From Talpa occidentalis (taxonomy: Eukaryota; Chordata; Mammalia; Eulipotyphla; Talpidae), in NCBI RefSeq assembly GCF_014898055.3, contig NW_023601433.1, positions 20,325,641-20,389,640 on the forward strand: a stretch of 64,000 nt of DNA. The letters are read 5' to 3'. The translations under genes were made by a program, and so were the position numbers. The notes beneath the pieces were generated by a model that did no database searches, had not been told where the DNA came from, and saw nothing but the letters and a program-made list of their open reading frames with translations. Each line of letters opens with the position of its first letter. Within the stretch, counting starts at the first letter, position 1. Below are positions 33,352 through 62,595 of this stretch, in pieces.

Positions 33352-33506
33352 GATCCCCCTTTTCTCTTTATTAGTGAGGAGGAATGTGCCTGTTTTAGGT
33401 TGTGAATTGCAGGGACGAGCCTTACCCGTCATCACCCAACGGTCCTAGATGGAAAGGGAGCGCAGGCTGTCTTAGGTTGGTCTTGTCCCGCATTCCATCT
33501 TACCCG

Positions 33507-34088: not shown

Positions 34089-34099
34089 AAAGAGACGCC

Positions 34100-34723: not shown

Positions 34724-34777
34724 TAAAAATCCACTGAAGGTATCAATGGAAACATGGACGGTGATAGTGCATGTTTG

Positions 34778-34822
34778 AGATTACCAAACTCAGAGATTAC
34801 CAAACTTGAGATTACCAAACTC
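34778..34822 (-). repeat. 16-bp tandem triplication inside integrase
   Basis: 'gagattaccaaactcag' and near copies occur three times in a row. On the minus strand they encode repeated FGNL units just after the first catalytic Asp (WQMDVTH). Provirus B has a single FGN at this point, so the expansion is specific to provirus A. Confidence 0.8.
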
Positions 34823-36535: not shown

Positions 36536-36653
36536 TTTTAAACAATTCAGACACCAAAACTTACCTAATGACTGTCCTGCCCGGTGGGCCGGGGCCTGAA
36601 TAACTCGCGCCGAGCGCTGCGTCTGGGTCTACTGTAAATCTCTCGTACCTCGA

Positions 36654-36671
36654 GCGCCACGTTGGGCACCA
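36654..36671 (-). promoter_or_regulatory. Provirus A primer-binding site (Lys-like)
   Basis: On the minus strand, TGGTGCCCAACGTGGCGC lies two bases after the 5' LTR end. It closely resembles the tRNA-Lys(1,2) type used by type-D and HML retroviruses. Confidence 0.75.
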
Positions 36672-36673
36672 CC

Positions 36674-37004
36674 TGCCCGAGCCCGCGGACTGGTCAACGA
36701 GGTTCTCGAGGGGAGAGCAGCGACCTGAAGAACAGGGGTACACAGGAGGGAGACACGTGCACTATTCGTTCAGCTATCGCAGGTCTCGTTTACTTTCGGT
36801 TTCGGCGGGGCTTTATAGCTGGGGACCGGAAGCGGAAGAAGCAGGCCAAAGCCGTCATGAGCACTGGGCCAAAAAAGGCTAATCCAGGAAGGGCACATGC
36901 CCTTATTTGGTGCGCCAGAGGTCGTCATGCGCACTGGGCCAAAAGAAGCACAGCCAATCACGGAAAGGGGGAGTATCCTGATGCCACGAGGTAAGGCGCC
37001 AACA
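36674..37004 (-). mobile_element. Provirus A 5' LTR
   Basis: 331 bp, with a TATAAA box opposite 36,812-36,817 and the same repeated U3 layout as the 3' LTR. It is followed on the minus strand by the primer-binding site and the gag leader (36,536-36,653). Confidence 0.88.
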
Positions 37005-40000
37005 ATGCCCAGCAGCAATGATAAGCCCCAGAATCCACACTGGCCAGAGCCTGACCCCCCCAGCCGATTGCCCATGCACAAAGGGGCGCTTTTCAGGGCA
37101 CAGGTAGGAGCTGCTGGTGAGGGAGTGCAGGGAACCTAAGACACCATGGAGGTAGGGGGACATCTACCCCTAAGGGGAAACGGGACCTCTTCCCTCATGG
37201 GAGAACGGAGACCACTTCCCCCATTGGGGAAAGGTAAGAATTCCCCACGGGGCACACCCGCACCCCCCTGCCGCACTCACACCCCCAGGGGCGCTTGGGG
37301 CGTCAAAAGACGCCCTAGAGGGAGGGGCGGGGTCACTGTCAGGGAGGGAAACCCCTGTAAGCCACCGGCAAGTGGCGAGCGTGGCCTCATCCAAAACGGC
37401 AGGCAGACAGGCCTGCGCGGAATGCCACGGGCAACCCAGCACCACTCAAAGGGGAAGAGTCCTCACCTGGCCCAGCAGAGGCCGATGAGCCCCCGGCGCC
37501 GCCCCCGGCCGGAGACTGACTCCGCCCAACGGACTCTGGCTGCAAAAAGGTGCACTTCAACGGGCCGCCGCTAGGGGGCGCAGGCGAGGGGCCCGGAGCC
37601 CCTCAGACCCCAGGGGGATAATGGCCCTCTAACCCCGTGGGGAGACGGGACCCTCTTTCCCCCTGGGGGTATGGGCACCCCTTCCCCTTGGGGGGAACGG
37701 TAAAGCTCTCAGCGGGGCACACTCGCACCCACCTCCCGCACTCACACCCCCAGGGGCACTTGCGCGCCCAAAGACACCCTAGAGGAAGGGGCGGGGTCAC
37801 TGTCAGGGAGGGAACACCCTGTAAGCCAGCGGCAAGCTGTGAGCGCCACCTCTTCCAAAACGGCAGGCAGACAGGCCGGCGCAGAATGCCACGGGCAACC
37901 CAGCACCACTCAAAGGGGAAGAGTCCTCACCTGGCCCAGCAGAGGCTGATGAGCCCCCGGCGCCGCCCCGGCGGAAGACTGACTCTGCCCACCAGACTCT
38001 GGCTGAACAAAGATGCACTTCAAAGGGCCGCCGCTAGGCGGCGCTGGAGACAGGGCCGGAGCCCCTCAGCCACCAGGGGGATAAGGGCCCTCTATTCCCG
38101 TGGGGAGATGGGACCCTCTTTCCCACTGGGGGTACGGGCAACCCTTCCCCTTTGGGGGAACGGTAAAGCTCTCCGCGGGACACACTCGCACCCTCCTCCC
38201 GCACTCACACCCCCAGGGGCGCTTGCTCCCCCAAAGACACCCTAGAGGGAGGGGCGGGGTCACTGTCAGTGAGGGCACACCCTGTAAGCCACCAGCAAGC
38301 TGTGAGCGCGGCCTCTTCCAAAACGGAAGGCAGACAGGCCGGCGCGGAAATCCCCGGGCAACCCAGCACCGCTCAAAGGGGAAGAGTCCTCAACTGGCCC
38401 AGCAGAGGCTTATGAGCCACAGGCGCCGACCCCGGCCATAGCCTGACCCCGCCCACCGGACTCTGGATGCACAAGGGTGCACTTCTCAGGGCCGCCGCTA
38501 GGAGTCCGTGGTGAGGGGGGGTACCGAGGCCCTCAGCCCCCAGGGGTATAAGGGCCCTCTAACCCCGTTGGGAGACAGGAACCTCTTTCCCCCTGGGGGT
38601 ACGGGGACACTTTCCCCTTTGGGGGAACGGTAAATCTCTCCGCGGGGCACACCCGTACCCCCCTGACACACTCAAACCCCCAGGGGCGCTTGGGGCGCCC
38701 AAAGACGCCCTAGAGGGAGGGGCGGGGTCACTGTCAGGGAGGGCACCCCCTGTTAGCCACCAGCAAGCTGTGAGCGCGGCCTCACCCAAAACGGCAGGCA
38801 GACAGGCCGGCGCGGAATGCCCTGGGCAACCCAGCACCACTGAAAGGGGAAGAGTCCTCACCTGGCCCAGCAGAGGCTGAAGAGCCCCCGGCACCTCCCC
38901 CGGCCGCAGCCTGACCCCGCCCACCGGACTCTGCCTGCACAAAGGTGCATGTTTCAGGGCCGCCGCTAGGGGGCGCAGGTGAGGGGGGGTCTGGAGCCCC
39001 TCAGCCCCCAGGGGTATAAGGGCCCTCTAACCCCTTGGGGAGATGGGACCCTCTTTCCCCCTGGGGGTACGGGGACCACTTCCCCTTTGGGGGAACGGTA
39101 AATCTCACCGCGGGGCACACTGGCACCCCCCTGCCCCACTCACACCCCCAGGGATGCTTGAGGTGCCAAAAGACGCCCTAGAGGGAGAGGCGGGGTCACT
39201 GTCAGGGAGGGAAACCCCTGTAAGCCACTGGCAAGCCGCGAGCGCAGACTCTTCCAAAACGGTAGGCAGAAGGCATGCGCGGAATGCCACGGGCAACCCA
39301 GCACCACACAAGGGGAAGAGTCCTCACCTGGCCCAGCAGAGGCTGAAGAGCCCCTGGCGCCGTCCCCAGCTGGAGCCTGACCCCGCCCACCAGACTCTGG
39401 ATGCACAAATGTGCACTTCTGAGGGACGCCGTTAGGGGGCGCTGGTGAGGGGGTCCGGAGTCCCTCAGCCCCCAGGGGTATAAGGGCCCTATAACCCCGT
39501 GGGGAGACGGGACCCTCTTTCCCCCTGGGGTTACGGGGACCCTTTCCCCTTTGGGGGAACGGTAAAGCTCTCCGCGGGGCACACCCGCACCCCCCTGCCG
39601 CACCCACAACCCCAGGGGTGCTTGGGGCGCCCAAAGACGCCCTAGAGGGAGGGGCGGGGTCACTGTCAGGGAGGGCACCCCCTGTAACCCACCGGCAAGC
39701 GGCGAGCGCGGCCTCACCCAAAACGGCAGGCAGACAGGCCGGCAAGGAAAGCCCCGGGCAACCCAGCACCACTCAAAGGGGAAGAGTCCTAACCTGGCCC
39801 AGCAGAGGCCAATGAGCCCCAGGGGCCGCCCCTGGCCAGAGCCGGACCCCGCCCAGCGGACTCTGCCTGCACAAAGTTGCACATCTCAGGGCCGCCGCTA
39901 GAGGGCGTTGGTAAGGTGGCCGGAGCCCCTCAGCCCCCAGGGGGATAAGGGCCCTCTAACCCCGTGGGGAGACGGGACCCTCTTTCCCCCTGGGGGTACG

Positions 40001-41173
40001 GTGACCCCTTCCATTTTGGGGGAACGGTAAAGCTATCCGCGGGGCACACCCGCACCCCCCTGCCGTACTAACACCCCCAGGGGCGCTAGCAAGCCCAAAG
40101 ACGCCCTAGAGGTAGGGGCGGGGTCACTGTTAGGGAGCGAACCACCAGTAAGCCCCCGGCAAGCGGCGAGCGCGGCCTCTTCCAAAATGGCAGACAGACA
40201 GACCAGCGCGGAAAGTCCCTGGCAACCCGCACCCACCTCCCGCACTCACATCCCCAGGGGCGCTTGCGCGCCCAAAGACTCCCTAGAGGGAGGGGCGGGG
40301 TCACTTTCAGGGAGGGCATACCCTGTAAGCCACCAGCAAGCTGCGAGCGCGGCCTCTTCCAAAACGGCCGGCAGACAAGCCAGTGAGGAAAGCCCGGGGC
40401 AACCCAGCACCACTCAAAGGGGAAGAGTCCTCAACTGGCCCAGCAGAGGCAGATGAGACCCCGGCGCTGCCAACAGCCAGAGACTGACTCCGCCCACTGG
40501 ACTCTGGCTGCAAAAAGGTGCACTTCAAAGGGCCGCCGCTAGGGGGCACTGGCGAGGGGGCCGGAGCCCCTCAGCCCCCAGGGGGATAAGGGCCCTCGTA
40601 CCCTGTGGGGAGACGGGACCCTCTTTCCCCTGGGGGTACGGGCACCCCTTCCCCTTTTGGGGAACTGTAACGCTCTCCGCCGGGCACACACGCACCTCCT
40701 CCCGCACTCACACCCCCAGGGGCGCTTAGGGCGCCCAAAGACGCCCTAGAGGGAGGGTCGGGGTCACTTTCAGGGAGGACACCCCCTGTAAGCCACCTGC
40801 AAGCAGCGAGGGCGGCGACTTCCAAAATGGCAGGCAGACAGGCCGGCTCGGACTGCCCCGGGCAACCCAGCACCACTCAACGGGGAAGATTCCTCACCTG
40901 GCCCAGCAGAGGCTGAAGAGCCTCCGGCGCCCCCCCGGCCGCAGCCTGACCCCGCCCACCGGACTCTGCCTGCACAAAGTTGCAAATCTCAGGGCCGCCA
41001 CTAGGGGGCGCTGGTGAGGGGGTCCAGAGCCCCTCAGCCCCAGGGTATAAGGGCCCTCTAACCTCGTGGGGAGACGGGACCCTCTTTCCCCCTGGGGGTA
41101 CGGGGACCACTTCCCCTTTGGGGGAATGGTAAAGCCCTCTGCGGGGCACACTAGCACCCTCCTCCCGCACTCA
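37005..41173 (+). repeat. Satellite block 1, about 465-bp monomers (8 plus a degenerate edge copy)
   Basis: The CTCF-like core recurs near 37,562, 38,028, 38,487, 38,958, 39,424, 39,892, 40,531 and 40,993. All units have the same order: 'gggagacgggaccctctttc', 'cgcccaaagacgccctagag', 'ccggcaagcggcgagcgcgg', 'aagagtcctcacctggccca', 'gccgctagggggcgctgg'. The first copy (37,005-37,400) is clearly more diverged. The 39,892-40,531 interval is about 174 bp longer because part of the unit is repeated (about 40,040-40,250). GC and CpG density are high throughout. The block ends at the provirus B TSD. Confidence 0.95.
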
Positions 41174-41512
41174 TGGTGGGGCCCAGACCTGAGGCCCAGA
41201 CCTGAACATCCGGGTTCTTGCCTGAAGCAGGTACTGAATGTTAGCTCCAGGGAAGGTTTCAAGTTTCCTATTGTGAAGACTGAACCTTTCCCCCTGCTTG
41301 CTACTGTGGCTTGTTTGCATTGGTGGTCTCTCCTTGCTAGAGATAAAGAGAGACCTCCTCCTCTGAACCCTATATAACATTGTACACATTCCTGAATAAA
41401 TGAGACTGGCGATGATCCTGGCTTTGTCTCCACTCCTCGCGTACCCCTGTCCCATACCAAGCCCCTGCTTCCTCCCCCGGGTACCCCATTGATCTGCCCA
41501 GCTGGCCCGTCA
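41174..41512 (+). mobile_element. Provirus B 5' LTR
   Basis: Starts TG and ends CA. A TATATAA box is at 41,371-41,377 and an AATAAA signal at 41,395-41,400. It is followed two bases later by the primer-binding site. Confidence 0.9.
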
Positions 41513-41514
41513 TT

Positions 41515-41532
41515 TGGCGCCCAGCTTGGGGC
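41515..41532 (+). promoter_or_regulatory. Provirus B primer-binding site (Lys-like)
   Basis: TGGCGCCCAGCTTGGGGC differs at two positions from the usual tRNA-Lys(1,2) site and lies two bases after the LTR. Confidence 0.75.
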
Positions 41533-41663
41533 CCGGGTACGAGGAAGAACTTACAGAGGGAGAAGATGCCCAAAGAGGAAGCTAGCTAGCTCAGGAGGAA
41601 GCCTTACTGATGTGGGACCCTGCTGCATCGTGGATATGTAAGCTCAGGTACAGCGTCTGAATC

Positions 41664-43032
41664 ATGGGACAGGAAATAAGCCAGCATGAGATATATGTGA
41701 AGCAATTAAAAATGGCACTTAGGACGCGAGGAGTCAGGGTCACAAAAAAGGATCTACTCCACTTTTTTGATTTTGTTCAAGACCTGTGTCCTTGGTTCCC
41801 TCAAGAGGGCACAGTAGATCAAAAAAGGTGGGAACGGGTAGGAGATGCTTTAAATGATTTCTATGAAGCTTTTGGCCCCCAAAAAATTCCGGTGACAGCA
41901 TTTTCATACTGGAATCTAATTAATGATTTAATTTCAAAAAAGGAAGCCTACCCTGATATTAAAAATACCATTTGCCAAACAGAACAACTGCTTAGAAATG
42001 CTTCTCCCAGCACTGCAGGGGCCCCATCCCCCAATGATCGCTGTGAGGACTTAATTCCGTTTCACAGTGATGGGGAGGATGATCCATCCAAAGAAGAACA
42101 AAAAGAACCTTTAGAGAAAATTGAAAGGGCCTCTCCCGACCGGTCCAAAATAGAAAAGAAAAACAGAATTTATCCCTCTCTGAGCAAGTTTACTTCTGTA
42201 GCTACAAATCCTCCTTGCTCATCTGAAGAAGAGGGCGGAGTTTTTCCACTGCTTAACTCCAAAAGCGAAATCAAAGTTGCTTTGCAACCTCCCCCCACTA
42301 TCGCAAAAGGGGAGGATCCTGAGGCGGGCGAAGTAGATTGGAGCAACCTGGAGGATGCTGCACGTTACAATCCCCACTCTCCTCCTTATTACACGGCCGC
42401 TGTTGCCTCTGTGCCCTCACAACTCGCTGACCCTAATCTCGACCTTAAAAACCAAAATCGCCCACCTTGAGGAGCGCATGCGCCTACAGGCCCGTTATCA
42501 TAAACTTTCCCTTCAACTTCAACAGATCCAATTAACTTCTTCATCCAACTCGGATCCCGCTCCGCCATTATGGGGGAGGGGTGACGCCGAGACCACCTTA
42601 AAGCCACCTTTACGGGGCGGAGTTGACGCAGACACCATTTTAACTCCTCCCCCGGCTCCCGCAGCTTTGTCTGCTTTCCCGCCTCCCAAAAAGCCCTTTT
42701 CCACGGCTTATGTCTCTCCTGTTATTAAAGCTCTAGATGCTCAAGGCCAATGCCGCCGTTATCACCAGCCACATAATTTTCAACATTTAAAGGAATTAAA
42801 AACTGCTGTTACCCAATATGATGCTAGTGCCCCTTTCACTCTCACAATTCTTGATTCTGTTGCAGAAGGGTGGCTCACTCCCCTAGATTGGCAAAATTTA
42901 GTAAAGGCTGCCCTTGACGGCAGAGATCATTTACTTTGGAGAACTGAATTTCAGGATCTCTGTAGGGACCTGGCCCAAGAAAATAAACGGGCTGGGAACC
43001 CATGGACTTTTGAAATGCTCACAGGCTCATGA
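41664..43032 (+). pseudogene. gag: Provirus B gag, one frameshift, truncated in capsid
   Basis: The ATG at 41,664 starts MGQE, a myristoylation signal. The first frame (41,664-42,470, 268 codons) holds the type-D matrix ('HFFDFVQDLCPWFPQEGTVD', 'VPVTAFSYWNLINDL') and an acidic, Pro-rich middle ('GEVDWSNLEDAARY', SPPYY). A frameshift near 42,440-42,470 moves the rest to the frame 42,355-43,032. That frame carries the capsid N-terminal half ('RYHQPHNFQHLKELK', 'GRDHLLWRTEF', ending FEMLTGS). Capsid ends there at the deletion joint. The assembly domain is lost. Confidence 0.9.
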
Positions 43033-43842
43033 GCTTCATCATCTCAACTCTAGCTCATTACGGCTTTTATTTAAAATTACTCGTGACCAAGCCAGACAAA
43101 TTGTAAAAGCCTGCTCCACCTGCGCGACAGGTCTTCCTGTGCCCCATCTTGGTGTTAATCCCAGGGGCCTCGTCCCCAACGCCCTCTGGCAAATGGATGT
43201 AACCCATAATTCTCAATTCGGTAATTTTAAGTATATTCACATTACTGTGAATACCTTTAGTGGGTTTCTCCTTGCCACCCTTCAAACAGGTGAAACCTCT
43301 AGACATGTTATTGCACACCTGCTCCACTGTTTCTCCATTTTGGGGATACCAAAACTATTAAAACTGATAATGGCCCATGCTACACTGCAAAGGCCTTAAA
43401 AAATTTTTGCTCTACCCTGTCCATGCACCACACCACAGGCATCCCTTATAATCCTCAAGGACAAGGCATAGTTGAGCATGCCCATCTTTCGTTAAAAACC
43501 ACCATCCAAAAAATTTTACATGGTTCCTGGTACCCCTCTAAAGGTAACCCCCGCAATACACTAAACCATGCTCTGTTCATCCTCAATTTCTTAAGGCTTG
43601 ACGCTCAGGCGAAAAGTGCGGCCGATCGTTTCTGGCATATGGAAACGCAAAATCAATTAGCAATGGTAAAATGGAAGGACCCTTTGGACAATACTTGGTA
43701 CGGCCCTGACCCAGTTCTGATCTGGGAAAGGGGATCTGTATGTGTCTTCTCACAGACTCATGATGCAGCCCGATGGTTGCCTGAACGGCTTGTCAGACAA
43801 ATTAATCATAAACACCAACCCAGGGACACTCAACCTCCCTGA
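43033..43842 (+). pseudogene. pol: Provirus B integrase, frameshifted
   Basis: The frame up to 43,399 contains the zinc-binding domain ('AHELHHLNSSSLRLLF', 'CSTCATGLPVPHLG') and the first catalytic Asp (WQMDVTHNSQ). It then goes out of frame just before the second catalytic Asp. A second frame (43,423-43,842) resumes with 'TTGIPYNPQGQGIVEHAH' (catalytic Glu) and the C-terminal domain ('ADRFWHMET', 'DPVLIWERGS', 'RWLPERLVRQ'). It joins gag directly, so RT and RNase H are absent. It is inactive. Confidence 0.88.
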
Positions 43843-43856
43843 GGTATCTTTTACTT

Positions 43857-44720
43857 TTGATTTCTTACAGTATGGTGACCGCTTCCTGGCTCATCCTCTG
43901 TGCTGAGATGTTACTTTTCTCCTCGGCCTTCGCCGGCTTCGGAGACACAGGCCAACTGATGTCCTTGACTGAAGCACTGTACGGTAAACCCTGTAATTGT
44001 AAAGGGGGTTACATAAAAATGTCGCCCACCAGCTATACCTCTCAGGTGACCTGTACTGGTGCCATTGCCTACTTGGTAACCGCTTGCTATGGGCCCACAA
44101 GCTGTCAGGCCTGTTACAAGTGCCTAAAAACCTCCGTAAACCTCTCTCCAGGCGGGCGGTGCCCCTGCACCAGTTTTCTTTCTTCAGTCCACTCCTCGTG
44201 CTACAAGACTTTTTCTCAATGCACGGCCAATAATAATAATAAGACTTATTATACTGCTGTTCTTATCAGGAAGTCCCCTGCAAATCAGGCACTGGCATCT
44301 ACCTTGCTGACCACCTGTGGTGCTAACAAAAAGGTCGGTGACACAGTGTGTTGGGCAACTACTGCCCCAGTACATGTCACCGATGGAGGAGGTCCTCAAG
44401 ACAAAGCCAAAGATCACTTTGTCAGTACAGTCTTAAAACATCTTGCACCACGCCTTCCCCCTGCGCTTAGCTACCATCCACTTGCCCTTCCTGCTGAAAG
44501 ACAAAAGTTGGGCATTGACTACAATACTTTTAATATCCTCAACTCTTCGTTCAATTTACTTAATTCAACAAACTCCTCACTGGCCAGTAACTGTTGGCTA
44601 TGTTTACAAATGGGTTTCCCTGTGCCTTTGGCCTTTCCAACAACCAATTCCTCACTTGCGCCCTACCGTAATTGCTCCTTCACAGTTCCCATTTTTGGTT
44701 CAGCCTATCCAATTTTTTGA
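43857..44720 (+). pseudogene. env: Provirus B env SU (receptor-binding subunit), truncated at 7SL joint
   Basis: The 287-codon frame begins with a hydrophobic signal peptide (residues about 8-27, ending AFAG). A Cys-rich surface domain follows ('CQACYKCLKTSVN', several N-X-S/T sites) and then the CWLC motif at residues 246-249, which in this Env class bonds covalently to TM. The product would be a type-D/gammaretrovirus-like SU. The frame stops at 44,718-44,720, three bases before the 7SL-derived sequence, so the SU C-terminus and the link to TM are lost. Confidence 0.88.
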
Positions 44721-44723
44721 CAC

Positions 44724-44960
44724 GCCGGGCGCAGTGGCGCGCGCCTGTAATCCCAGGCTACATGGGAGGCTGAGGCAGGAGGATCGCTTGATCGGCAATT
44801 CTGGGCCCCAGTCGGCCACAGTGCGCTGCACCCAGGTGCCCGCATGTTCACCTCCTCAGATGTGGTGACCTCTCCGGGGGCGGGGGTACCACACCAGACA
44901 GCCTGCGTAAACTGGCCGTCCCAGGTTGGCACAGTTTGGAGCACAGAGAGAGGCTCCTCA
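44724..44960 (+). pseudogene. 7SL (SRP) RNA-derived segment inside env
   Basis: Begins GCCGGGCGCAGTGGCGCG, the exact 5' end of 7SL RNA, and continues through the Alu-domain helices ('gggaggctgaggcaggagga', 'tcgcttga'). It goes on into the S domain ('gtggtgacctctccgggggc', then 'gggggtaccacac'), which excludes a plain Alu-type SINE. Similarity fades after about 44,935. Env sequence resumes at about 44,968. It is in the same sense as env, with no poly(A) and no flanking duplication. Relative to provirus C it replaces some env sequence rather than simply inserting. Confidence 0.82.
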
Positions 44961-44967
44961 AGAGTTC

Positions 44968-45644
44968 TGGAAATAAATCACATCCATTGCCGGCTAACTG
45001 GACTGGTCAATGCGTGTTGGGTTTCCTTCTACCCGACATAAACGTGGTTCCTGGAAGTGAGCCCATGCCCATTCCAACGGTTGACCAATTTTTTCAGTAA
45101 AAGTAAAAGAGCAGTACACCTGATTCCCTTATTTGCAGGCCTGGGTATAACTGCCGCCATGGCCTCAGGGACAGCTGGATTAGGCATATCTCTCTCACAA
45201 TATACTAAACTGTCTCAACAACTTATTAATGATGTTCATGCTCTTTCTAGTACTATTCAGGATCTTCAGGATCAGGTTGACTCCTTAGCTGAGGTAGTTC
45301 TTCAAAATCGACGGGGCCTTGATTTGCTAACTGCGGAAAAGGGGGGTATTTGGTTGGTCCTGCAGGAGAAATGCTGTTTCTATGCCAACAAATCAGGAAT
45401 TGTCTGCAATAAAATCCGACAGTTACAAGATGACCTGGAAAGAAAACGCCAGGAGCTAGCTGAAAATCCACTCTGGACTGGTCTCAATGGACTCTTACCC
45501 TACCTTCTCCCCCTCATGGGTCCCCTATTAACCCTTTTGATATTGGTTGTCCTGGGTCCTTGCATTTTTAACAGGATAATCTCCTTTGTAAGACAACAGA
45601 TTCAGGCCCTTCAGGCAAAACCCAATTCAGGTACATTACCATAA
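44968..45644 (+). pseudogene. env: Provirus B env, SU end and TM (fusion subunit)
   Basis: The open frame is 45,057-45,644 (195 codons). It has a furin-type site KSKR (residues 15-18), a hydrophobic fusion peptide (about 19-44), a heptad-repeat region and the immunosuppressive-domain motif starting [10 protein letters not shown] (82-). At the CX6CC site the first Cys is Trp (residue 99; the pair at 106-107 is kept). A membrane anchor lies at about 146-170, with a short tail. Without the first Cys the covalent SU link would be lost. Upstream env sequence to 44,968 is out of frame. Homologous to provirus C over its whole length. Confidence 0.88.
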
Positions 45645-45872
45645 GTTGGAGATGCGAGATAAGGGAGGCTCTTACTCAGACTTATGCTCAGTCTGAAGAA
45701 ATAAGACTCCCTTCCCCTGTGCAATGGACTGGTCAGCCAATGACGGATAAGATCGGGGGCAGACTCAAAATGGCTTGAGGTGCTAAATCGCCACACGTCT
45801 GTGACTCCTGACGACCTAAGACAGGCGCAGTCCCCGAGGGGTTTTTGTCTTTTCACTCTCTCATTAGAAATA

Positions 45873-45888
45873 ATAGAAAAGGAGGATC
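45873..45888 (+). promoter_or_regulatory. Provirus B polypurine tract
   Basis: 'agaaaaggaggat' directly precedes the 3' LTR and is the plus-strand primer site. The same tract is seen inverted at 62,936-62,951 in provirus C. Confidence 0.8.
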
Positions 45889-46228
45889 TGTCGGGGCCCA
45901 GACCTGAGGCCCAGACCTGAACATCCGGGTTCTTGCCTGAAGCAGGTACTGAATGTTAGCTCCAGGGAAGGTTTCAAGTTTCCTATTGTGACGACTGATC
46001 CTTTCCCCCTGCTTGCTACTGTGGCTTGTTTGCAATGGTGGTCTCTCCTTGCTAGAGATAACGAGAGACCTGCTCCTCTGAACCCTATATAACATTGTAC
46101 ACATTCCTGAATAAATGAGACTGGCGATGATCCTGGCTTTGTCTCCACTCCTCGCGTACCCCTGTCCCATACCAATCCCCTGCTTCCTCCCCCGGGTACC
46201 CCGTTGATCTGCCTGGCTGGCCCAGACA
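45889..46228 (+). mobile_element. Provirus B 3' LTR
   Basis: 340 bp, TG...CA, with TATATAA and AATAAA as in the 5' LTR. The TSD CACTCA follows. Confidence 0.9.
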
Positions 46229-49200
46229 CACTCACACCCCCAGGGGCGCTTGCGCACCCCAAGATGCCCTAGAGGGAGGGGCGGGGTCACTGTCAGGGAG
46301 GGCACACACTGTAAGCCACCAGCAAGCGGCGAGCGCGGCCTCTTCCAAAACGGCAGGCAGACAGACCAGCGCGGAAAGCCCCGGGCAACCCAGCACCACT
46401 CAAAGGGGAAGAGTCCTCACCTGGCCCAGCAGAGGCTGATGAGACCCAGGCGCCGACCCCGGCCGGAGACTGACCCCGCCCACAGTACTCTGCCTGCACA
46501 AAGGTGCACTTCTCAGGGCCGCCGCTAGGGGGCGCTGGTGAGGGGGGTCCGGAGCCCCTCAGCCCCCAGGGGGTTAAGGGGCCTCTAACCACGTGGGGAG
46601 ACGGTACCCTCTTTCCCCCTGGGGGTACGGGGACCCCTTCCCCTTTGGGGGAACGGTAAAGCTCTCCGCGGGGCACACTCGCACCCTCCTGCCGCACTCA
46701 CACGCCCAGGGGCGCTTACCCGCGAAAAGACGCCCTAGAGGAAGGGGCGGGGTCACTGTCAGGGAGGGCACCCCCTGTAAGACACCGGCAAGCAGCGAGC
46801 GCGGCCTCTTCCAAAACGGCAGGCAGACAGGCCAGAGCAGAAAGCCCCGGGCAACCAGCCTCACTCAAAGGGGAAGAGTCCTCACCTGGCCCAGCAGAGG
46901 CAGATGATCCCCCGGCGCCACCCCAGGCCTGAGCCTGACTCCGCCCACCGGTCTCTGGCTGCAAAAAGGTGCACTTCAAAGGACGGCCGCTAAGGGGCGC
47001 TGGTGAGGGGTGCCGGACCCTCGCAGTGCCCAGGGGGATAAGGGCCCTCTAATCCCATGGGGAGACGGGACCCTCTTTCCCCAGGGATACGGGAACACCT
47101 TCCCCTTTGGGGGAACGGTAAATCTCACCGCGGGGCACACCCGCACCCCCCTGCCGCCCTCACACCCCCAGGGGCGCTTGGTGCGCCAAAAGACGCCCTA
47201 GAGGGAGAGGCGGGGTCACTGTCAGGGAGGGCACTTCCTGTAAGACACCGGCAAGCAGCGAGCGCGTCCTCATTCAAAACGGCAGGTAGACAGGCCGGCG
47301 AGAAAAACCCGGGCAACCGAACACCACTCAAAGGGGAAGAGTCCTCACCTGGCCCAGCAGTGGCCGATGAGCCCCCGGCGCCGCCCCTGGCCGGAGCCTG
47401 ACTCCACCCACCGGACTCTGGCTGCACAATATTGCACTTCAAAGGGCCTCCGCTAGGGGGCGCTGGCGAGAGGGGCCGGAGCCCCTCAGCCCCGAGGGGA
47501 ATAACAGCCCTCTAACTCCATGGGGAGACGAGACCCTCTTTCCCTCTGGGGGTACGGGCACCACTTCCCCTTTGGGGGAATGATAAACCTCTCCGCAGGA
47601 ACACTCGCACCCTCCTCCTGCACTCACACCCCCAGGGGCCCTTGCGCGACCAAAGACGCCCTAGAGGGAGGGGCGGGGTCACTATCAGGGAGGGCACACA
47701 CTGTAAGCCACCAACAAGCGGCGTGTGTGGCCTCTTCCAAAATGGTAGGCAGACAGCCGGCGCGGAGAGCCGCAGGCAACCCAGCACCACTCAAAAGGGA
47801 AGAGTCCTCACCTGGCCCAGCAGAGGCCCATGAGCCCCCGGCGCCGCCCCCGCCAGAGCCTGACTCCGCCCACCGGAATCTGGCTGCACAAAGGTGCACT
47901 TCAAATGGCCGCAGCTAGGGGGCTCTGGTGAGGCGTCCGGAGGCCCTCAGCCCCCAGGGGGATAAGGGCCCTCTAACCCCGTGGTGAGACGGGACCCTCT
48001 TTCACCCTGGGGGTACGGGCACCCATTCCCCTTTGGTGGAACGGTAAAGCTCTCCGCGGGGCACACTCGCACCCCGCTGCCGCATTCACACCCCCAGTGG
48101 CCTTTGGGGCATCCAAAGACGCCCTAGAGGAAGGGGCGCGGTCACTGTCAGGGAGGGCACCCCCTGTAAGCCACTGGCAAGCGGCGAGCGCGTCCTCTTC
48201 AAAAACGGCAGGAAGACAGGCCGGCGCGGAAAGCCCCAGGCAACCCAGCACCACTCAAAGGGGAAGAGTCCTCACCTGGCCCAGCAGAGGCTGATGAGCC
48301 CCAGGCGCCGACCCCTGCCAGAGCCGGACCCCGCCCAACCGGTCTCTGGCTGCACAAAGGTGCACTTTTCAGGGTCGCCGCTAAGGGGCGCTGGAGAGTG
48401 GGGCCCAAGCCCCTCAGCCCCCAGGGGGATAAGGGCCCTCTAACTTCGTGGTGAGACGGGACCCTCTTTCCCCCTGGGGGTACGGGCACCCCTTCCCTTT
48501 GGTGGAACGGTAAAGCTCTCCGCGGGGCACACTCGCACCCCCCTGCCGCACTCACACCCTCAGTGGCCCTTGGGGCGCCCAAAGACGCCCGAGAGGAAGG
48601 GGCGGAGTGACTGTCAGGGAGGGCACCCCCTGTAAGCCACCGGCAAGCGGCGAGCGCGGCCTCTTCAAAAACGGCAGGCAGACAGGCCAGCGCGGAATGC
48701 CCCGGGCAACCCAGCACCACTCAAAGGGAAGAGTCCTCACGTGGCCCAGCAGAGGCTGATGAGCCACCTGCGCCACCCCCGGCCAGAGCCTGACCCCGCC
48801 CTCCGGACTCTGGCTTCACAAAGTTGCACTTCAAAGGGCCGCCGCTAGGGGCCGCTGGTGAGGGGTCCGGAGACCCTCAGCCCCCAGGGGTATAACGGCC
48901 CTCTAAACCCGTGGGGAGACGGGACGCTCGTTCCCCCTGGGGGTACGGGGTCCCTTTCCCCTTTGGGGGAACGGTAAAGCTCTCCATGTGGCACACCCGC
49001 ACCCCCCTGCCGCACTCACAACCCCCGGGTCGCTTGGGGCGCCCAAAGACGCCCTGGAATGTGGGGTGGGGTCACTGTCAGGGAGGGCACCCCCTGAAAG
49101 CCAACGGAAAGCGGCGACGCGGCCTCATCCAAAACGGCAGGCAGACAGGCTGGCGCTGAATGCCCCGGGAATCCCAGCACCACTCAAAGGGGAAGAGTCC

Positions 49201-52200: not shown

Positions 52201-55200
52201 TTTGGGGTAAAGGTAAAGCTCTCTTCCGGGCACACCCGCACCATCCTCCCGCACTCACACCCCCAGGGTCGATTGGGGCGCCCAAAGACTCCCTAGAGGA
52301 AGGGGTGGCATCACTGTCAGGGAGCGCACCCCCTGTAAACCCCGGCAAGCGGCGAGCATGGCGCATTCCAAAACAGCAGGCAGACAGGCCAGCGCGGAAT
52401 GCCACAGGCAACCCAACACCACACAAAGGGGAAGAGTCCTCACCTGGCCCAGCAGAGGCTGAAGAGCCCCCGGAGCCGCCCCCTCCCCAGCCTGACTCCG
52501 CCCACCGGACTCTTCCTGCCCAAAGGTGCGTTCTCAGGGCAGCCGATAGGGGGCGCTGGTGAGGGAGGGTCCGGAGCCCCTCAGACCCCAGGGGGATAAG
52601 GGCCACCTGACCCGTGTGGAGACGGGAATCTCTTTCCCCCTGGTGGTCAGGGACACCTTCCCCTTTGGGGGAACGGTAAATCTCACCGCGAGGCACACCC
52701 GCACCCCCCTGCCGCACTCACACACCCAGGGTCGCATGGGGCTCCTAAAGACGGCCTAGAGGGAGGGGCGGGGTCACTGTCAGGGAGGGCACCCCCTGTA
52801 AGCCACCGGCAAGTGGCGAGCGCGGCCTCTTCCAAAAGGGCAGGCAGAAAGTACGGCGCGGAAAGCCCCGGGCAACCCAGCACCACTCAAAGGGGAAGAG
52901 TCCTCACCTGGCCCAGGAGGGTGATGAGCCCCTGGCGCCACACGATGCAGGAGCCTGACCCCGCCCACCGGACTCTGCCTGCAAAAAGGTGCACATCTCA
53001 GGGCCGCCGCTAGGGGGCGCTGTTGAGGGAGCTCCGGAGCCCTTCAGCCACAGAGGTATAAGGGCCCTCTAACCCCGTGTGGAGACGGGACGCTCTTTCC
53101 CCCTAGGGGTACGGAGACCCCTTCCTCTTTGGGGGAACTGAAAAGCTCTCCGCGGGGCTCACCCGCACCCTCCTCCCGCACTCACACCCCCAGAGGCGCT
53201 TGCGAGCCCAAAGACGCCCTAGAAGGAGGGGTGGGGACACGGTCAGGGAGGGCACCCCCTGTAAGCCACCGGCAAGCGGCGAGCGTGTCCTCTTCCAAAA
53301 CGGCAGGCAGACAGGCCGGCGCGTAAAGCCCCGGGCAACCCAACACCACTCAAAGGGGAAGAGTCCTTTCCTGGCCCATCAGAGTCTGAAGAGCCCCCGG
53401 AGCCGCCCCCTCCCCAGCCTGACTCCGCCCACCGGACTCTTCCTGCCCAAAGGTGCGTTCTCAGGGCAGCCGATAGGGGGCGCTGGTGAGGGAGGGTCCG
53501 GAGCCCCTCAGACCCCAGGGGGATAAGGGCCACCTGACCCGTGTGGAGACGGGACCCGTTCCCCCTGGGGGTACGGGGACACCTTCCCCTTTGGGGGAAC
53601 AGTAAAGCTCTCTGCCGGGCACACCCGCAACCTCCTCCCGCATTTACACACCCAGGGACGCTTGGGGCGCCCAAAGACGCCAAAGAGGGAGGCGCGGGGT
53701 CACTGTCAGGGAGGGCACCCCCAGTAAGCCACCGGCAAGCAGCGAGCGCGGCCTCTTCCAAAACGGCAGGCAGACAGGCCAGCGCGGAAAGCCCCGGGCA
53801 ACCCAGCACCACTCAAAGGGGAAGAGTCCTCACCTGGCCCTGCAGAGGCTGATGAGGCCCTGGCGCCGCCCCCGGCCGGAAACGGACCCCGCCCACCGGA
53901 CTCTGGCTGCACAAAGGTGCAATTCTCAGGGCCGCCGCTAGGGGGCGCTGGTGAGGGGGGCCGGAGCCCCTCAGCCCTCAGGGGGATAAGGGCCCATTAA
54001 CCCCGTGGGTAGAAGGGACCCTATTTCCCCCTGGCAGTACAGGGACCCCTTCACCTTTGGAGGAACGGTAAAGCTCTCCGCCGGGCCACCCGCACCCTCC
54101 TCCCGCACTCACACCCACAGTGGCGCTTGGGGCGCCCAAAGACGCCCTAGAGGAAGGGGTGGGGTCACTGTCAAAGAGGGCACCCGCGGTAAACCACCGG
54201 CTAGCGGCGAGCGCGGCCTCTTCCAAAACGGCAGGCAGACAGGCTGGCGCAGAAAGGCCCGGGCAACCCAGCACCACTCAAAGGGGAAGAGTCCTCACCT
54301 GGCCCAGCAGAGGCTGAAGAGCCCCCGGCGCCGCCCCACCCGCAGCCTGACCCCGCCCACCGGACTCTGCCTTTAGAAAGGTGCACTTCTGAGGGCGGCC
54401 GTTAGGCGGCGCTGGTGAGGAGGATCCTGAGCCCCTCAACCCCCAGGGGTATAAGGGCTCCCTAACCCCGTGGGGAGACATGACCCTCTTTCCGACTGCA
54501 GTTACGGGGACCCCTTCCCCTTTGGGGAACGGTAAAGCTCTCCGCGGGGAACACCCGCATCCTCCTCCGGCACTCACACCCTCAGGGGCGCTTGGGGCGC
54601 CCAAGGACACCCTAGAGGGAGGGGCGGGGTCACTGTCAGGGAGGGCACCCCCTATAAGCCACCAGCAAGCGGCGAGCACGGCCTCTTCCAAAACGGCAGG
54701 CAGACAGGCCGGCGGGGAAATCCCCGGGCCACCCAGCACCACTCAAACGGGAAGAGTCCTCACCTGGCCCAGCAGAGGCTGAAAAGCCCCCGGCGCCGCC
54801 CCCAACCGGAGCCTGACCCCGCCCACCGGACTCTGGCTGCACAAAGGTGCACTTCTCAGGGCCGCCGCTAGGGGGCGCTGGTGAGGGGGTCCGGAGCCCC
54901 TCAGCCACCAGGGGGATAAGGGCCCTCTAACTCCGTGGGGAGACGGGACCCTCATTTTCCCTGGGGGTACGGGAACCCCTTCCCCTTTGGGGGAACAGAA
55001 AAGCTCTCCGCGGGGCACACCCGCACCCTCCTCCCGCACTCACACACCGAGGGGCGCTTGGGACGCCCAAAGATGCCCTAGATGGAGGGGCAGGGTCGCT
55101 GTCATGGAGGGGAACGCCTGTAAGCCACAGGCAAGCGGCAAGCGCAGCCTCTTCCAAAACGGCAGGCAGACAGGCCGGTGCGGAAAGCCCTGGGCAACCC

Positions 55201-58200
55201 AGCACCACTCAAAGGGGAAGAGTCCTCACCTGGCACAGCAGAGGCTGATGAGCCCCAGGCGCATCCCCAGTATGGAGCCTGACCCCGCCCACCGGTCTCT
55301 GCCTGAACAAGGTGCTCTTCTCAGGGCCGCCGCTAGGGGGCGCTGGTGAGGGGTTCCGGAGCCCCTCAGTCTCCAGGGGGATAAGGGCCCTCTAACCCGG
55401 TAGGGAGACGCGACCCTCTTTCCCCCGGGAGTACTGGGACCCCTTCCCCTTTGGGGGAACGGTAAAGCTCTCCGCGGGGCACACCCGCACCCTCCTCCCG
55501 CTCTCACACCCCAGGGGTGCTTGGGGCGCCCAAAGAAGCCCTATATGGAGGCGCGGTGTCACTGTCATGGAGGGGAACGCCTGTAAGCCACCTGCAAGCT
55601 GCGAGAGTGGCCTCATCCAAAACGGCAGGTAGACAGGCCAGCGCGGAAAGCCCCGGGCAACCCAGCACCACTCAAATGGGAAGATTCCTCACCTGGCGCA
55701 GCAGAGGCTGATGAGCCCCCGGCGCCGCCCCCGGTTGGAGCCTGACCCCACCCACCGGACTCTGCCTGCACAAATTTGCACTATTCAGTGCCGCCGCTAT
55801 GGGGAGCTTGTGAGGGGGTCCGGAGCCCCTCAGCCCCCAGGAGGATAAGGGCCCTCTAACCCCGTGGGGAGACGGGACCCTCTTTTCCTCTGGGGGTACT
55901 GGGACCCTTTCCCCTTTCGGGGAACAGTAAAGCTCTCCGTGGGGCACACCCGCACCCTCCTCCCGCACTCACACCCCCAGGGGTGCTTTGGGAGCCCAAA
56001 CACACCCTAGAGGAGGGGCAGGGTGTCAGTCAGGAAGGGCACCCCAGGTAAGCCACCGGCAAACGGTGAGCGGGGCCACTTCCAAAAAGGCAGGCAGACA
56101 GACCTGCGCAGAAAGCCCCGGGAAACCCAGCACCACTCAAATGGGAAGTCCTCACCTGGCCCACGAGAGGCTGATGAGCCCCCGGCGCCGCCCCGTCCAG
56201 AGCCTGACTCCGCCCACCGGACTCTGCCTGCACAAAGATGTTATTCTCAGGGCCGCCGCTAGGGGTCGCTGGTGAGCGTGGGGGTTTGGAGTCCCTCAAC
56301 CCCCAGGGGGATAAGGGACCTCTAACTCCTTGGGGAGACGGGACCCTCTTTCCCCCTGGGGGTATGAAGACCCCTTCCCAATTGGGGGAATGGTAAAGCT
56401 CTCCGCGGGGCACACCCGCACCCTCCTCCCACACTCACACCCCCACGCGTGCTTGGGGTGCCCAAAGACGCCCTAGAGGGAGGGTCGGGGTCACTGTCTG
56501 GGAGGGCACTCCCTGTAAGCCACAGGCAAGCGGCGAGCGCGGCCTCTTCCAAAATGGCAGGAAGACAGGCCGGCGCAGAATGCCCCGGGTAACAGAGCAC
56601 CACTCAAATGGGAAGAGTCCTCACCTGGCCCAGCACAGGCTGATGAGCCCCAGGCGCAGCCCACGGGCGGAGCCTGACCCCGCACCCTGGACTCTGCCTG
56701 CACAAAGGTGCACTACTCAGGGCCACGGCTAGGGGGCGCTGGTGAGGGTGGGTCAGGAACCCCTCAGACCCAGAGGGTTAAGGGCCCTCTAAGCCCGTGG
56801 GCAGACGGGACCCTCTTTCCCCCTGGCAGTACGGGTACCCCTTCCCCTTTGGGGGAAATGTAAAGCTCTCCGCGGGGCACACCCGCACACTCCTCCCGCA
56901 CTCACACACTCAGGCGCACTTGGAGCGCCCAAACGCCCTAGAGGGAGGGGCGGGGTCATTGTCAGGGAAGGCACCCCCTGTAAGCCAACAGCAAGCTGTG
57001 AGAGCGGCCTCTTCCAAAACGGCAGGCAGATGGACGGCGCGGAAAGCCCCAGGCAACACAGCACCACTCAAAGGGGAAGAGTCCTCACCTGGTCCAGCAG
57101 AGGCTGATGAGCCCCTGGCGCCGCCCGGGCAGGAGCCTGACTCCGCCCACCGGACTCTGGCTGCACAAATTTTCACTTCTCAGTGCCCCCGATAGGGGGA
57201 GCTGGTGAGGGGTGTCCGGAGCCCCTCAGCCCACAGGGGGATAAGGGCCCTCTAACCCCGTGGGGAGACGGGACCCTCTTTTCCCCTGGGGGTATGGGGT
57301 CCCCTTCCCCTTTGGGGGAACAGTAAAGCTCTCCGCGTGGCACACCCGCACCCTCCTCCAGCACTCACACACCCAGGGGCGCTTGCGGCGCCCAAAGACG
57401 CCCTAGAGGGAGGGGCGGGGTCACTGTCAGGGTGGGCACCCCCAGTAAGCCACCGGAAAACGGCGATCGCGGCCTCTACCAAAACGGCAGGCAGAGAGGC
57501 CGGCGCGGAAAGCCCCGGGTAACCCAGCACCACTCAAACGGGAAGAGTCCTCACCTGGCCCAGCAGAGGCTGAAGAGACCGTGGCACCGCCCCCGGCCGG
57601 ATCCTGACCCCGCCCACTGGACTCTGACTTCACAAAGGTGCATTTCTCAGGGCCACCGCTAGGGGAGGCTGGTGAGGGGTGTCCGGAGCCCCTCAGCCCC
57701 CAGGGGGATAAGGGCCCTCTAACCCCGTAGGGAGACGGGACCCACGTTCCCCCTGGGGGTACGGGGAACACTTCCCCTTTTGGGGAATGGTAAAGCTCTC
57801 CGCGGGGCACACCCGCACCCTCCTCCCGCACTCACACCCACAGGGGCGTTGGGGCGCCGAAGACGCCCTAGAGGGAGGGGCTGAGTTACTGTCAAGGAGG
57901 GCACCCCCTGTAAGCCACCGGCAAGCGGCGAGCGCGGCCTCTTCAAAACGGCAGGCAGACAGGCCAGCGTGGAATGTCCCGGGCAACCCAGCACCTCTCA
58001 ACGGGGAAGAGTCCTCACCTGGCCCAGCAGAGGCTGATGAGACCCCGGAGCCGCCCCCAGCCAGTGCCTGACCCCCGCCCACTGGACTCTGCCTGAGCAA
58101 AGGTGCACTTCTCAGGGCCGCCGCTAGATGCGCTGGTCAGCGGGGGGGTCCGGAGCCCCTCAGCCCCCAGGGGGATAAGGGCCCTCAAGATCCGTGGGGA

Positions 58201-61200
58201 GACGGGACCCTATTTCCCCTGGGGGTACGGGGAACCCTTCCCCTTTGACGGAACGGTAAAGCTCTCCACGGGGCACACCCGCACCCTCCTCCCGCACTCA
58301 CACCCACAGGTGCGCTTGGGGCGCCAAAGACTTCCTAGAGGGATGGGCGGGTTTACTGTCAGGGAGGGCATCCCCAGTAAGCCACTGGCAATGGCGAGCG
58401 TGGCCTCTTCCAAAACGGCAGGCAGACAGGCTGGCGCGGAAAGCCCCGGGAAACCCAGCACCACTCAAATGGGAAGAGTCCTCACATGGCCCAGCAAAGG
58501 CTGATGAGTCCCAGGCGCCGCCCCAGGCTGGAGCCTGACCCCGCCCACCAGACTCTGCCTGCACAAAGGTGCACTTCTCGGGGCCGCCGCTAGGGGGCCC
58601 TGTTGAGAGGGGGTCCGGAGCCCCACAGCCCCCAGGGGGATAAGGTCCCTCTTACCCGGTGGGGAGACGGGACCCTCTATCCCCCGGGGGTACTGGGACC
58701 CCTTCTCCTTTGTGGGAACGGTAAAGCTCTCCGCGGGGCACACCCACACCCTCCTCCAGCAATCAACCCCCAGGGGCGTTGGGGCGCCCAAAGACGCCCT
58801 AGAGGGTAGGGCGGGGTCACTGTCAGGGATGACACCCCCTGTTAGCCACCGTCAAGCGGCGAGCGCGGCCTCTTAAATAACTGCAGGCAGACAGGCCTGC
58901 GCAGAAAGCCCCGGGCAACCCAGCACCACTCAAAGGGGAAGAGTCCTCACCTGGCACAGCAGAGGCTGATGAACCCAAGTCGCAGCCCCCAGCCTGAGCC
59001 TGACCCCGCCCACGGAAGTCGGCCTGCAGAAAGATGCAATTCTCAGGGCCGCCGCTAGGGGGCGCTGGTGAGGGTGCGGTCCGGAGCCACTCAACCCCCA
59101 GGGGGATAAGGGACCTCTAACCCCGTGGGGAGAAGGGACCCTCTTTCTTCCTGGGGATCCGGGGACCCCTTCCCCTTTGGGGGACGGTAAAGCTCTCCAC
59201 GGGGCACACCCACACCCCCCTGCCGCACATACCCCCAGGGGCACTTGGGGCACCCAAAGACGCCCTAGAGGGAAGGTCCAGGTCACTGTCAGGGAGGGTA
59301 CCCCCTGTTAGCCACCAGCAAGCGGCGAGCCTGGCCTCTTCCAAAACGGCAGGCAGAGAGGCTGGCGCGGAAAGCCCTGGGCAACCCAGGACCACTCAAA
59401 GGGGAAGAGTCCACACCTGGCCCAGCAGAGGCTGATGAGCCCCCGGCGCCGCCCCAGGCGCCGCCACCGGCCGGAGCCTGACCCCGCCCACCGGATTCTG
59501 GCTGCACAAAAGTGCACTTCTCAGGGCCGCAGCGAGGGGCCGCTGGTGAGGGGGTGTCCGGAGCCCCTCAGCCTCCAGGGGGATAAGGGCCATCTAACCC
59601 CGTGGGGAGACATGAACCTCTTTCCCCCTGGGGGTACGGCGACCACTTCCCCTTTGGGGGAACGGTAAAGCTCTCCGCGGGGCACACCCACTCCCTCCTC
59701 CTGCACTCACACCCTCTGGGTCGCTTGGCGCGCCCAACGACGCCCTAGAGGGAGGGTCGGGGTCACTGTCAGGGAGGGCACCCCCAGTAAGCCACCGGCA
59801 AATGGCGAACGCTGCCTCTTCCAAAACGGCAGGCAGACAGGCCGGCGCGGAAAGCCCTGGGCAACGCAGCACCACACAAAGGGGAAGAGTCCTCACCTGG
59901 CCCAGCAAAGGCTGATGAGCCCCAGGCGCAGCCCCAGGCTGGAGCCTGACCCCAACCACCGGACTCTGCCTGCACAAAGGTGCACTTCTCAGGCCCGCCG
60001 CTAGGGGGCGCTGGTGAGGGGGTCCGGAACCCCTCAGCCCACAGGGGGATAAGGGCCCTCTAACCCCGTGGGGAGACAGGACCCTCTTTCCCCCTGGGGG
60101 TACGAGGACTCCTTCCCCTTTTGGGAACGGTAAAGCTCTCCGCCAGGCACACCCGCAATCTCCTCCCGCACTCACACACCCAGGGACGCTTGGGGCGCCC
60201 AAAGACCCCCTAGAGGGAGGGGCGGGGTCACTGTCAGATAGTGCACCCCCTGTAAGCCACCGGCAAGTGACGCGCGCGGCCTATTCCAAAACGGCAGGGA
60301 GACAGGCCGGCGCGTAAAGCCCCGGACAACCAAGCACCACTCAAAGGGGAAGAGTCCTCACCTGGCCCAGCACTGGCTGATGAGCCTCAGGTGCCGCCCC
60401 CGGCCGGAGCCTGACCCCGACCACCGGACTCTGCCTGCACAAGGTGCACTTCTCAGGTCCGCCGCTAGTGGGCGCTGGTGAGGGGAGGGCTGTCCGGAGC
60501 CCCTCAGCACCCAGGAGGATAAGGGCCTATAACCCAGTGTGGAGACAGGACCCTCTTTCCCCCTCAAGCTACGGGGACCACTTCCCCTTTGGGGTAATGG
60601 TAAAGCTCTCCGCGGGGCACATCCTCACCCTCCTCCCGCACTCACACCCCCAGGGGCGCTTGGGGCGCCCAATGACGCCCTGGAGGGAGGGGCGGTGTCA
60701 CTGTCAGGGAGGGCACCCCATGTACGCCAACGGCAAACGGCGAGCGCGGCCTCTTCCAAAACGGCAGGCAGACAGGCCGGCGCAGAAAGCCCCGGGCAAC
60801 CAGCACCACTCAAAGGGGAAGAGTCCTCACCTGGCCCAGCAGAGGCTGATGAGCCCCAGGCGCCGCCCTGGGCCAGAGCCTGACCGCGCCCACCGGATTC
60901 TGCCTGCATAAATGTGCACTTCTCTGGGCCGCCGCTAGGGATTGCTTCTGAGTGGGGTCCGGAGGCCCTCAGCCTCCAGGGGGATTAGGGCCCTCTAACC
61001 CCGTGGGGAGACGGGACCCTTTTTCGCCCTCGGGGTACGGGGACCACTTCCCCTTTGGTGGAACGGTAAAGCTTAACAACGGGCACACCCGCACCCTCCT
61101 CCCGCACACACACACCCAGGGGCGCTTCTGGCGCCCAAAGACGCCCTAGAGGGAGGGGCGGTGTCACTGTTAGGGAGGGCACCCCCAGTAAGCCACTGGC

Positions 61201-62031
61201 AAGCGGCGAGCGCGGCCTCTTCCAAAACGGCAGGCAGACACCTGCACGGAATGCCCCGGGCAACCCAGCACCACTCAAAGGGGAAGAGTACTCACTTGGC
61301 CCAGCAAAGGCTGAAGAGCCCCCGGCGCCGCCCCCGGCTGGAGCCTGACACCGCCCACCGGACTCTGCCTGCAGAAAGGTGCACTTCTCAGGGCCGCCGC
61401 TAGGGGGCGCTGTTGAGTGGGGGCCGGAGCCCCTCAGCCCCCAGGGGGATAAGGGCCCTCTAAACCCGTGGGGGACGGCACCCTCTTTCCCCCTGGGGGT
61501 ACGTGGACCCCTTCCCCTTTGGGGGAACTCTAACGCTCTCTGCCGGGCACACCCACATCCTCCTCCCGCACTCAAACCCCCAGGGGCGCTTGGGGCGCCC
61601 AAAGAAGCCCTAGAGGGAGGGGCGGGGTCACTGTCAGGGAGGGCACCCTCTGTAAGCCACCGGCAAGCAGCGAGCTCGGACTCTTCCAAAACGGCAGGCA
61701 GATAGGCCTGCGCGGAAAGCCCCGGGCAACCCAGCACCACTCAAAGGGCAAGAGTCCTCACCTTTCCCAGCAGAGGCTGAAGAGCCCCTGGCGCAGCCCC
61801 TGGGCGAGCCTGATCCTGCCCACCAGACTCTGCCTTCACCAAGGTGCACTTCTCAGGACCGCCGCTAGGGGGCGCTGGTGCGGGAGTGTCTGGAGACCCT
61901 CATCCCCCAGGGGAATAAGGGCCCTCTAACCCCTTGGGGAGATGGGACCCTCGTTCTCCCTGAGCGTACGGGGACCCCTTCCCCTTTGGTGGAACGTTAA
62001 AGCTCTCCGCCCGGCACACCCGCACGCTCCT
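46229..62031 (+). repeat. Satellite block 2, about 34 monomers of about 465 bp
   Basis: CTCF-like cores lie near 46,519, 46,984, 47,450 and so on to 61,859. The mean spacing is 465 bp (34 cores in 15.34 kb). Units diverge individually by point changes and small indels, and one (49,773-50,215) is about 22 bp short. All are in one orientation. Bases 52,461-52,627 and 53,388-53,554 are identical over 167 bp. No unit encodes a protein with known homology. The array is cut at 62,031 by an LTR. Confidence 0.95.
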
Positions 62032-62595
62032 TGCTGCACCTCCCCCTGCAGTGACCCTTAGGGCTAATGGCTTGCGCCACGGTCCCTAGGTCCGGCTGGG
62101 CAACCAGCGCGCACGGGGAGAACAGCAAAACCCCCTGAAGATATACCTGCTGCACCTCCTCCTGCAGTGACCTCTAGGAATCCCTAGGTCCCGCTGGGCA
62201 ACCAGTGGGCAGGAGGAGAACAGCAAAAAACCGCCTGAAGACATAGATAAGACGGAAGCCTGTTGAAAGATAACGACCACCAGGAGCCACTACAGGAATG
62301 CTGTCCGCACGGAAACTTATCTCACCTTCTCTAGACCCACAAACTTTATTCTAATACAACTGTCCCTCTAAAATCTTTTCTCTTTCTCTGTTTAAAAGGT
62401 CATTGGTTTGCCGATTAAAAAAGAACATATGAAATCTAATAACTAGGCTGATTCAAATGAAACATTACTAAACTCTGTGTATTAATAGAACTGCTAGCTT
62501 AATAATTTCTCTGTTATATACTTAGCCTTGTTAGTATTAATCTAAATGATAAAAATATTACATTGTGAAAAGTAAAATTCACCCGTGTTAATTAA
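62032..62595 (+). mobile_element. LTR of the 838-bp family, partial, with terminal duplication
   Basis: The sequence is the plus-strand counterpart of the solo LTR at 28,481-29,318. It starts TGCTGCACCTCC in satellite DNA and matches to about the 'cacccgtgttaatt' region, where provirus C interrupts it. The first about 118 bp are tandemly duplicated (TGCTGCACCTCC at 62,032 and 62,150), which the 28-kb copy does not show. The remainder should lie beyond the window, after provirus C. Confidence 0.82.

Follow-up and report, generated by a model that had tools for sequence, protein, structure and literature searches.

To our knowledge, few satellites carry a CTCF site in every monomer. DXZ4, which is X-linked and lies downstream of PLS3, does so. 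Its monomers are about 3 kb long, human neighbours diverge by less than 1%, and the CTCF segment is the part best conserved between mammals (excerpts of PMC3491370). Here we describe a satellite array in a 64,000-nucleotide stretch of the mole Talpa occidentalis (NCBI RefSeq assembly GCF_014898055.3, contig NW_023601433.1, positions 20,325,641 to 20,389,640, forward strand; hereafter the window, whose own numbering is used throughout). Like DXZ4 as described in those excerpts, this array is a GC-rich tandem repeat with one CTCF motif per monomer in a single orientation (PMC3491370), and if bound it would act in a similar way. It differs in that its units are 465 bp long and about 14% divergent, so that neighbours are not nearly identical (0.858 between adjacent units), and in that its conservation peaks outside the CTCF core (compared here between units of one array). 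We consider it probable that the array is a relic block of a GC-rich mole satellite, mostly silent, whose unmethylated copies could be bound by CTCF or by CTCFL, the germline paralogue of CTCF.

Two other systems are close enough to be compared. FA-SAT, the major satellite of the cat, has a period of 483 bp. It resembles the array in being GC-rich, in having a CpG island and in its similar monomer size, while its host is a carnivore and the comparison is by description only (excerpts of PMC6379292). Human cells likewise have tandem repeats, the telomeric satellite TAR1 among them, that are occupied by CTCF and CTCFL/BORIS (excerpts of PMC5007689). These repeats share with the array their clustered CTCF-type motifs; the human ones have chromatin immunoprecipitation evidence, whereas for the array binding is a prediction from the motifs.

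Organization of the array

A profile built from the units and searched over the window recovered 42 full 465-bp monomers plus three partial copies, every one of them on the + strand. The number and spacing proposed in the initial annotation (42 monomers at about 465 bp) were thus confirmed; mean unit spacing in the right satellite block was 464.8 bp. By profile matches, eight full units and two partial ones form the first block (37005..41173, + strand), and 34 full units form the second (46229..62032, + strand). The left end of the array is a partial monomer at 32936..33020 (+ strand; profile match 32936-33023, monomer positions about 114-200). Tandem Repeats Finder gave a period of 463-465 bp at 37174-40233, 40229-41173 and 46229-62031; the satellite period is 465 bp and the profile length 466-467. 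The monomer consensus has 71% G+C, and the units have 33.5% A+T.

The interval first assigned to the array, 37005..62031, does contain satellite, but it is not continuous, as a provirus-like insertion occupies 41174-46228, and the array begins at 32936. Position 37005 marks the right edge of another insertion (33021-37004), and satellite resumes to the left of it. No CENP-B box was found at up to one mismatch on either satellite strand, and G-quadruplex motifs numbered none on the + strand and three on the - strand of the satellite.

A two-part CTCF site in the monomer

The 17-bp CTCF core occurs 37 times at up to three mismatches, always on the + strand, where shuffled sequence would give 0.27; 12 of these copies match exactly. 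Both strands were then scored with a reconstructed copy of the CTCF matrix MA0139.1, for which 13.14 bits correspond to p<1e-5 and 16.98 bits to p<1e-6 under a uniform background. The intact core, for example at 46519..46537 (+ strand, monomer positions 291-309), scores 19.41 bits, well above threshold (p 1.7e-7 under the uniform background, 7.2e-7 under a GC-rich one). Read in aligned columns, 33, 27 and 19 of the 42 units reach p<1e-4, 1e-5 and 1e-6, respectively, including the unit at 49943, in which a deletion has displaced the core. The core does sit at one place in the monomer, and the last of these counts is close to the initial estimate of about 18 essentially consensus copies. At p<1e-5 the satellite (about 20 kb) has 27 sites on the + strand and one on the - strand, and the remaining 44 kb of the window has five.

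The motifs do share one orientation in all units, but this follows from head-to-tail repetition and amounts to one event, not 42. Since all units share one ancestral sequence, the single monomer is the fair unit of evidence. The consensus score was equalled by 39 of 20,000 dinucleotide shuffles of a single monomer and by 18 of 20,000 column-permuted matrices, so the CTCF motif exceeds chance at about the 0.1-0.2% level. Three core strings did not occur in the literature searched, and a search for Talpa with CTCF returned no paper on moles by title among the matches listed.

The consensus also contains a CTCF upstream half-motif, TGCACTTCT, at monomer positions 277-285, 5 bp ahead of the 19-mer (for example 46505..46513, + strand, a consensus position placed by the same offset from the core). 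It agrees with six of the eight positions of the CTCF upstream motif TGCAGTNCC, and its place is the sole + strand offset among 465 to do so. Six positions match in 30 of the 42 units, five in 10 and four in two. The same 5-bp gap is present, by our own reading, in the three binding sites printed in PMC11194110. According to excerpts of PMC12885311, the upstream motif occurs at about 13% of CTCF sites and is tied to high affinity and insulation, and the spacer between it and the core is variable. As the half-motif has the published spacing, a genuine two-part CTCF site was probably present in the ancestral monomer.

The likeness to CTCF could instead be a by-product of a GC-rich, G-run-rich monomer that never was a binding site. 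The 71% G+C of the consensus speaks for this, as do the 1570 of 20,000 single-monomer shuffles that yield some site at p<1e-5 (39 of them, as given above, as strong as the real one) and the ordinary identity of the core, which 41% of all same-size windows match in conservation (mean 0.923 for the 17-mer, 0.915 over all windows). However, a half-motif at the right spacing would be an independent coincidence, with a chance of about 0.005 at that fixed place under base composition, and the consensus score lies far beyond the p<1e-5 threshold. We therefore regard this explanation as unlikely.

Neutral decay of the sites

The retention of sites was compared with a simulation of neutral decay that used the mutation rates of the other columns of the monomer. 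It predicted 34.9, 25.9 (20-32) and 15.7 units at p<1e-4, 1e-5 and 1e-6, against the 33, 27 and 19 seen (P 0.84, 0.43 and 0.19), and a mean CTCF score per unit of 13.95, against 14.08 seen. Conservation within the core does not track how heavily the matrix weights each position (Spearman -0.38, p 0.11). Conservation is highest in a 40-bp block away from the CTCF core, at monomer positions 169-208 (CACTCAAAGGGGAAGAGTCCTCACCTGGCCCAGCAGAGGC; P 0.006, permutation), for example at about 46398-46437. Site retention thus equals neutral decay, and the CTCF cores have been lost at about the rate of the rest of the monomer.

These results bear on the function first proposed for the array, that of a strong one-directional loop anchor or boundary. 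An active boundary like that of DXZ4 would have many same-facing CTCF sites that halt cohesin arriving from the right and keep chromatin domains apart. Motif strength and the half-motif favour binding. CTCF binding to unmethylated copies is plausible, since intact cores score 19.4 bits and have a half-motif at the published spacing, and on motif content a strong one-directional boundary is possible. An active boundary would fit the 27 same-facing sites (p<1e-5) packed into about 20 kb of satellite, compared with five in the other 44 kb. It would also fit the link of the upstream motif with affinity and insulation in the excerpts of PMC12885311, a further high-scoring CTCF-type motif in the same orientation immediately beyond the left end of the array (32472..32490, + strand; matrix scan, 18.9 bits), and the slight excess conservation of the 19-mer (P 0.042, see Discussion). 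Yet maintenance of the array as a boundary is not supported: sites are retained as under neutral decay (P 0.43), core conservation does not track matrix weight, and conservation peaks at 169-208 instead. Furthermore, the array is not homogenized as DXZ4 is, with adjacent units just 0.858 identical against the human difference of below 1% (excerpts of PMC3491370), and its probable family (see below) is pericentromeric. An active boundary is therefore quite improbable.

An ageing array with two retroviral insertions

Identity between units is about 0.855 at nearly all lags (0.858 at lag 1), and the best pair reaches 0.909. The pairwise Kimura two-parameter (K2P) distance is 15.9%, and K2P to the consensus is 8.4%. 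Excess linkage between unit variants is present, chiefly over short distances.

Two endogenous betaretrovirus-like insertions interrupt the array. ERV2 (33021..37004, - strand) was recognized by a long terminal repeat (LTR) pair, a packaging-signal match and Gag domains in an open frame, and ERV1 (41174..46228, + strand) by an LTR pair, a packaging-signal match and Gag and Env domains in separate open frames. In self-comparison the ERV2 LTRs (33019-33351 and 36672-37004) are 97.0% identical and those of ERV1 (41178-41509 and 45893-46223) 97.3%; the LTR distances of the two insertions are 3.6% and 3.0%. ERV2 is flanked by a 6-bp target duplication, ATGCCC, at 33015-33020 and 37005-37010, and ERV1 by CACTCA at 41168-41173 and 46229-46234. 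The LTR pairs and target duplications indicate that two retroviral elements entered a pre-existing satellite. The LTR ends abut the array, and the idea that the satellite is a variable repeat inside an LTR was rejected on the same grounds; an exact 43-mer of the monomer had no match in viral contigs.

Each insertion occurs once within the array. This, together with the even divergence across lags, indicates that the array is static and ageing and that homogenization is over.

A single Talpa occidentalis protein was matched by two Gag frames of ERV1, one at 91% across 108 residues and the other at 90% across 178. The Gag of ERV2 was distant from all matches, with the star-nosed mole second of 70 at 41%. 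In the stretch to the right of the array (62032-64000), the array edge adjoins an inverted copy (84-91%) of 28832-29318, and beyond this copy lies a third betaretrovirus-like element, antisense and 97% identical to ERV1 over 1.24 kb.

Substitution pattern between units

The differences between units are rich in transversions. Outside CpG, the ratio of C>T to C>A was 0.84 among the 42 units (37275-41167 and 46230-62032). In other repeats of the window it was 13.0 (four short interspersed element, SINE, copies), 2.1 (an L1 pair), 3.8 (ERV1 against ERV3) and 2.9 (a 196-bp tandem repeat); the SINE value rests on four of five copies, the fifth (13124-13384, 80% identical) being left out. Two controls fit less well: L1 and SINE pairs that are older (about 70% identical) come near 1:1 in transitions to transversions, and the two LTR pairs stand at 5:7 and 6:4. 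Neighbour-templated substitution was considered as a source of the transversions and does not explain them. The ratio of CpG to non-CpG transitions is 2.6 in the array and 3.4-5.7 in four further repeats of the window; the array is therefore no clear outlier for germline hypomethylation.

Assembly or polishing error is very unlikely to account for much of the unit variation and, through it, for the apparent core decay. In favour of such error, singletons show a near random-substitution ratio (109 transitions, 249 transversions), and other repeats of comparable age in the window are rich in transitions. Against it, variants common to at least five units are transversion-rich as well (25 to 35), alternative bases are shared more often than the Poisson expectation, the published short-read divergence of the family is similarly high (excerpts of PMC9859602), and the LTR pairs, which lie outside the satellite and total 11:11, show that richness in transitions does not hold throughout the window. 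Assembly error may contribute to the singletons; it would hardly create variants common to many units.

Identity of the satellite family

The satellite, which the initial annotation did not recognize, is probably TaquSat4-466 of Talpa, judged by length, divergence, composition and host. In the text on the Talpa aquitania satellitome (PMC9859602), units longer than 183 bp are named only for TaquSat4-437-466 and TaquSat5-3102. TaquSat4 is described there with monomers of 437-466 bp, 30.4-32.6% A+T and a Kimura divergence of 13.3-18.5%, as 0.146% of the genome, at pericentromeres including that of the X and also on the Y, and as present in T. occidentalis too. Like the array (465 bp), TaquSat4-466 is GC-rich, old and divergent, and lives in a mole. 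The A+T of the array falls slightly beyond the TaquSat4 range; its 15.9% K2P is pairwise, while the published divergence was measured from short reads against a T. aquitania consensus (PMC9859602). The window showed no copy of the 437-bp variant. TaquSat4 was compared by description only, and is the most likely identity. The term CTCF has no occurrence in the main text of PMC9859602, as far as it was available. FA-SAT, the first guess from GC content and size, was set aside when the Gag frame of an insertion pointed to moles. The SINE sequences had raised the idea of a bat or carnivore host, which was dropped. A literature search for 465-bp satellites gave no lead among the matches listed.

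Surrounding sequence

Elsewhere the window holds copies assigned to L1 and tRNA-derived SINEs, in mammalian-looking DNA; a reverse-transcriptase domain was found. For an L1 fragment, no mole was named among the matches listed (120 of 6725). At 31800-32490, three copies of the 196-bp tandem repeat precede the CTCF-type motif at 32472. A short GC- and CpG-rich stretch at 12300-12900 looks like a CpG island by eye, and no Pfam domain was found in the open frame at 12202-12939. No gene was identified in the 64-kb window.

Discussion

We favour a history in which the ancestral monomer would have held one two-part CTCF site, tandem amplification would have multiplied it in a single orientation, and the copies then decayed at the rate of the remaining monomer, as the neutral comparison shows. 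Pericentromeric satellites are usually methylated, and methylation at core CpG positions lowers CTCF binding. The core carries two CpGs, and in most cells the CpG-bearing copies would be methylated and unoccupied. Wherever the block is free of methylation, as it may be in germ cells, the early embryo or tumours, CTCF or CTCFL could occupy about 27 sites. According to excerpts of PMC12885311, CTCF insulates more strongly if its N-terminal side, which lies downstream of the core, is turned towards the enhancer. Occupied units would therefore be predicted to stall cohesin arriving from downstream, that is from the right side at higher coordinates.

Several points weigh against this reading. The neutral model treats the array consensus as the ancestor, and the matrix behind the scores is a reconstructed one (column sums 908-913). 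Once base class is taken into account, the 19-mer shows slightly more conservation than random columns do (P 0.042, uncorrected), an excess that a pure relic would not call for. The differences between units, described above, lean towards transversions. The TaquSat4 identity is drawn from length, composition, divergence and host.

If the array is TaquSat4-466 and typical of it, there would be thousands of potential CTCF sites genome-wide. Excerpts of PMC9859602 put TaquSat4-466 at 0.066-0.2% of a 2.1-Gb genome, which corresponds to some 3000 to 9000 monomers. As a long shot, a mole-wide satellite with thousands of two-part motifs, at about 0.07-0.2% of mole genomes and on X, Y and autosomes, might be opened by germline or embryonic demethylation into a same-facing reservoir that titrates CTCF and CTCFL or builds pericentromeric boundaries. 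The neutral decay seen here advises caution, in that same-facing tandem motifs are one evolutionary event and their count does not by itself argue for function. Should a common satellite of moles prove to have an ancestral two-part site, moles would offer a natural test of whether amplified CTCF motifs have any effect in heterochromatin.

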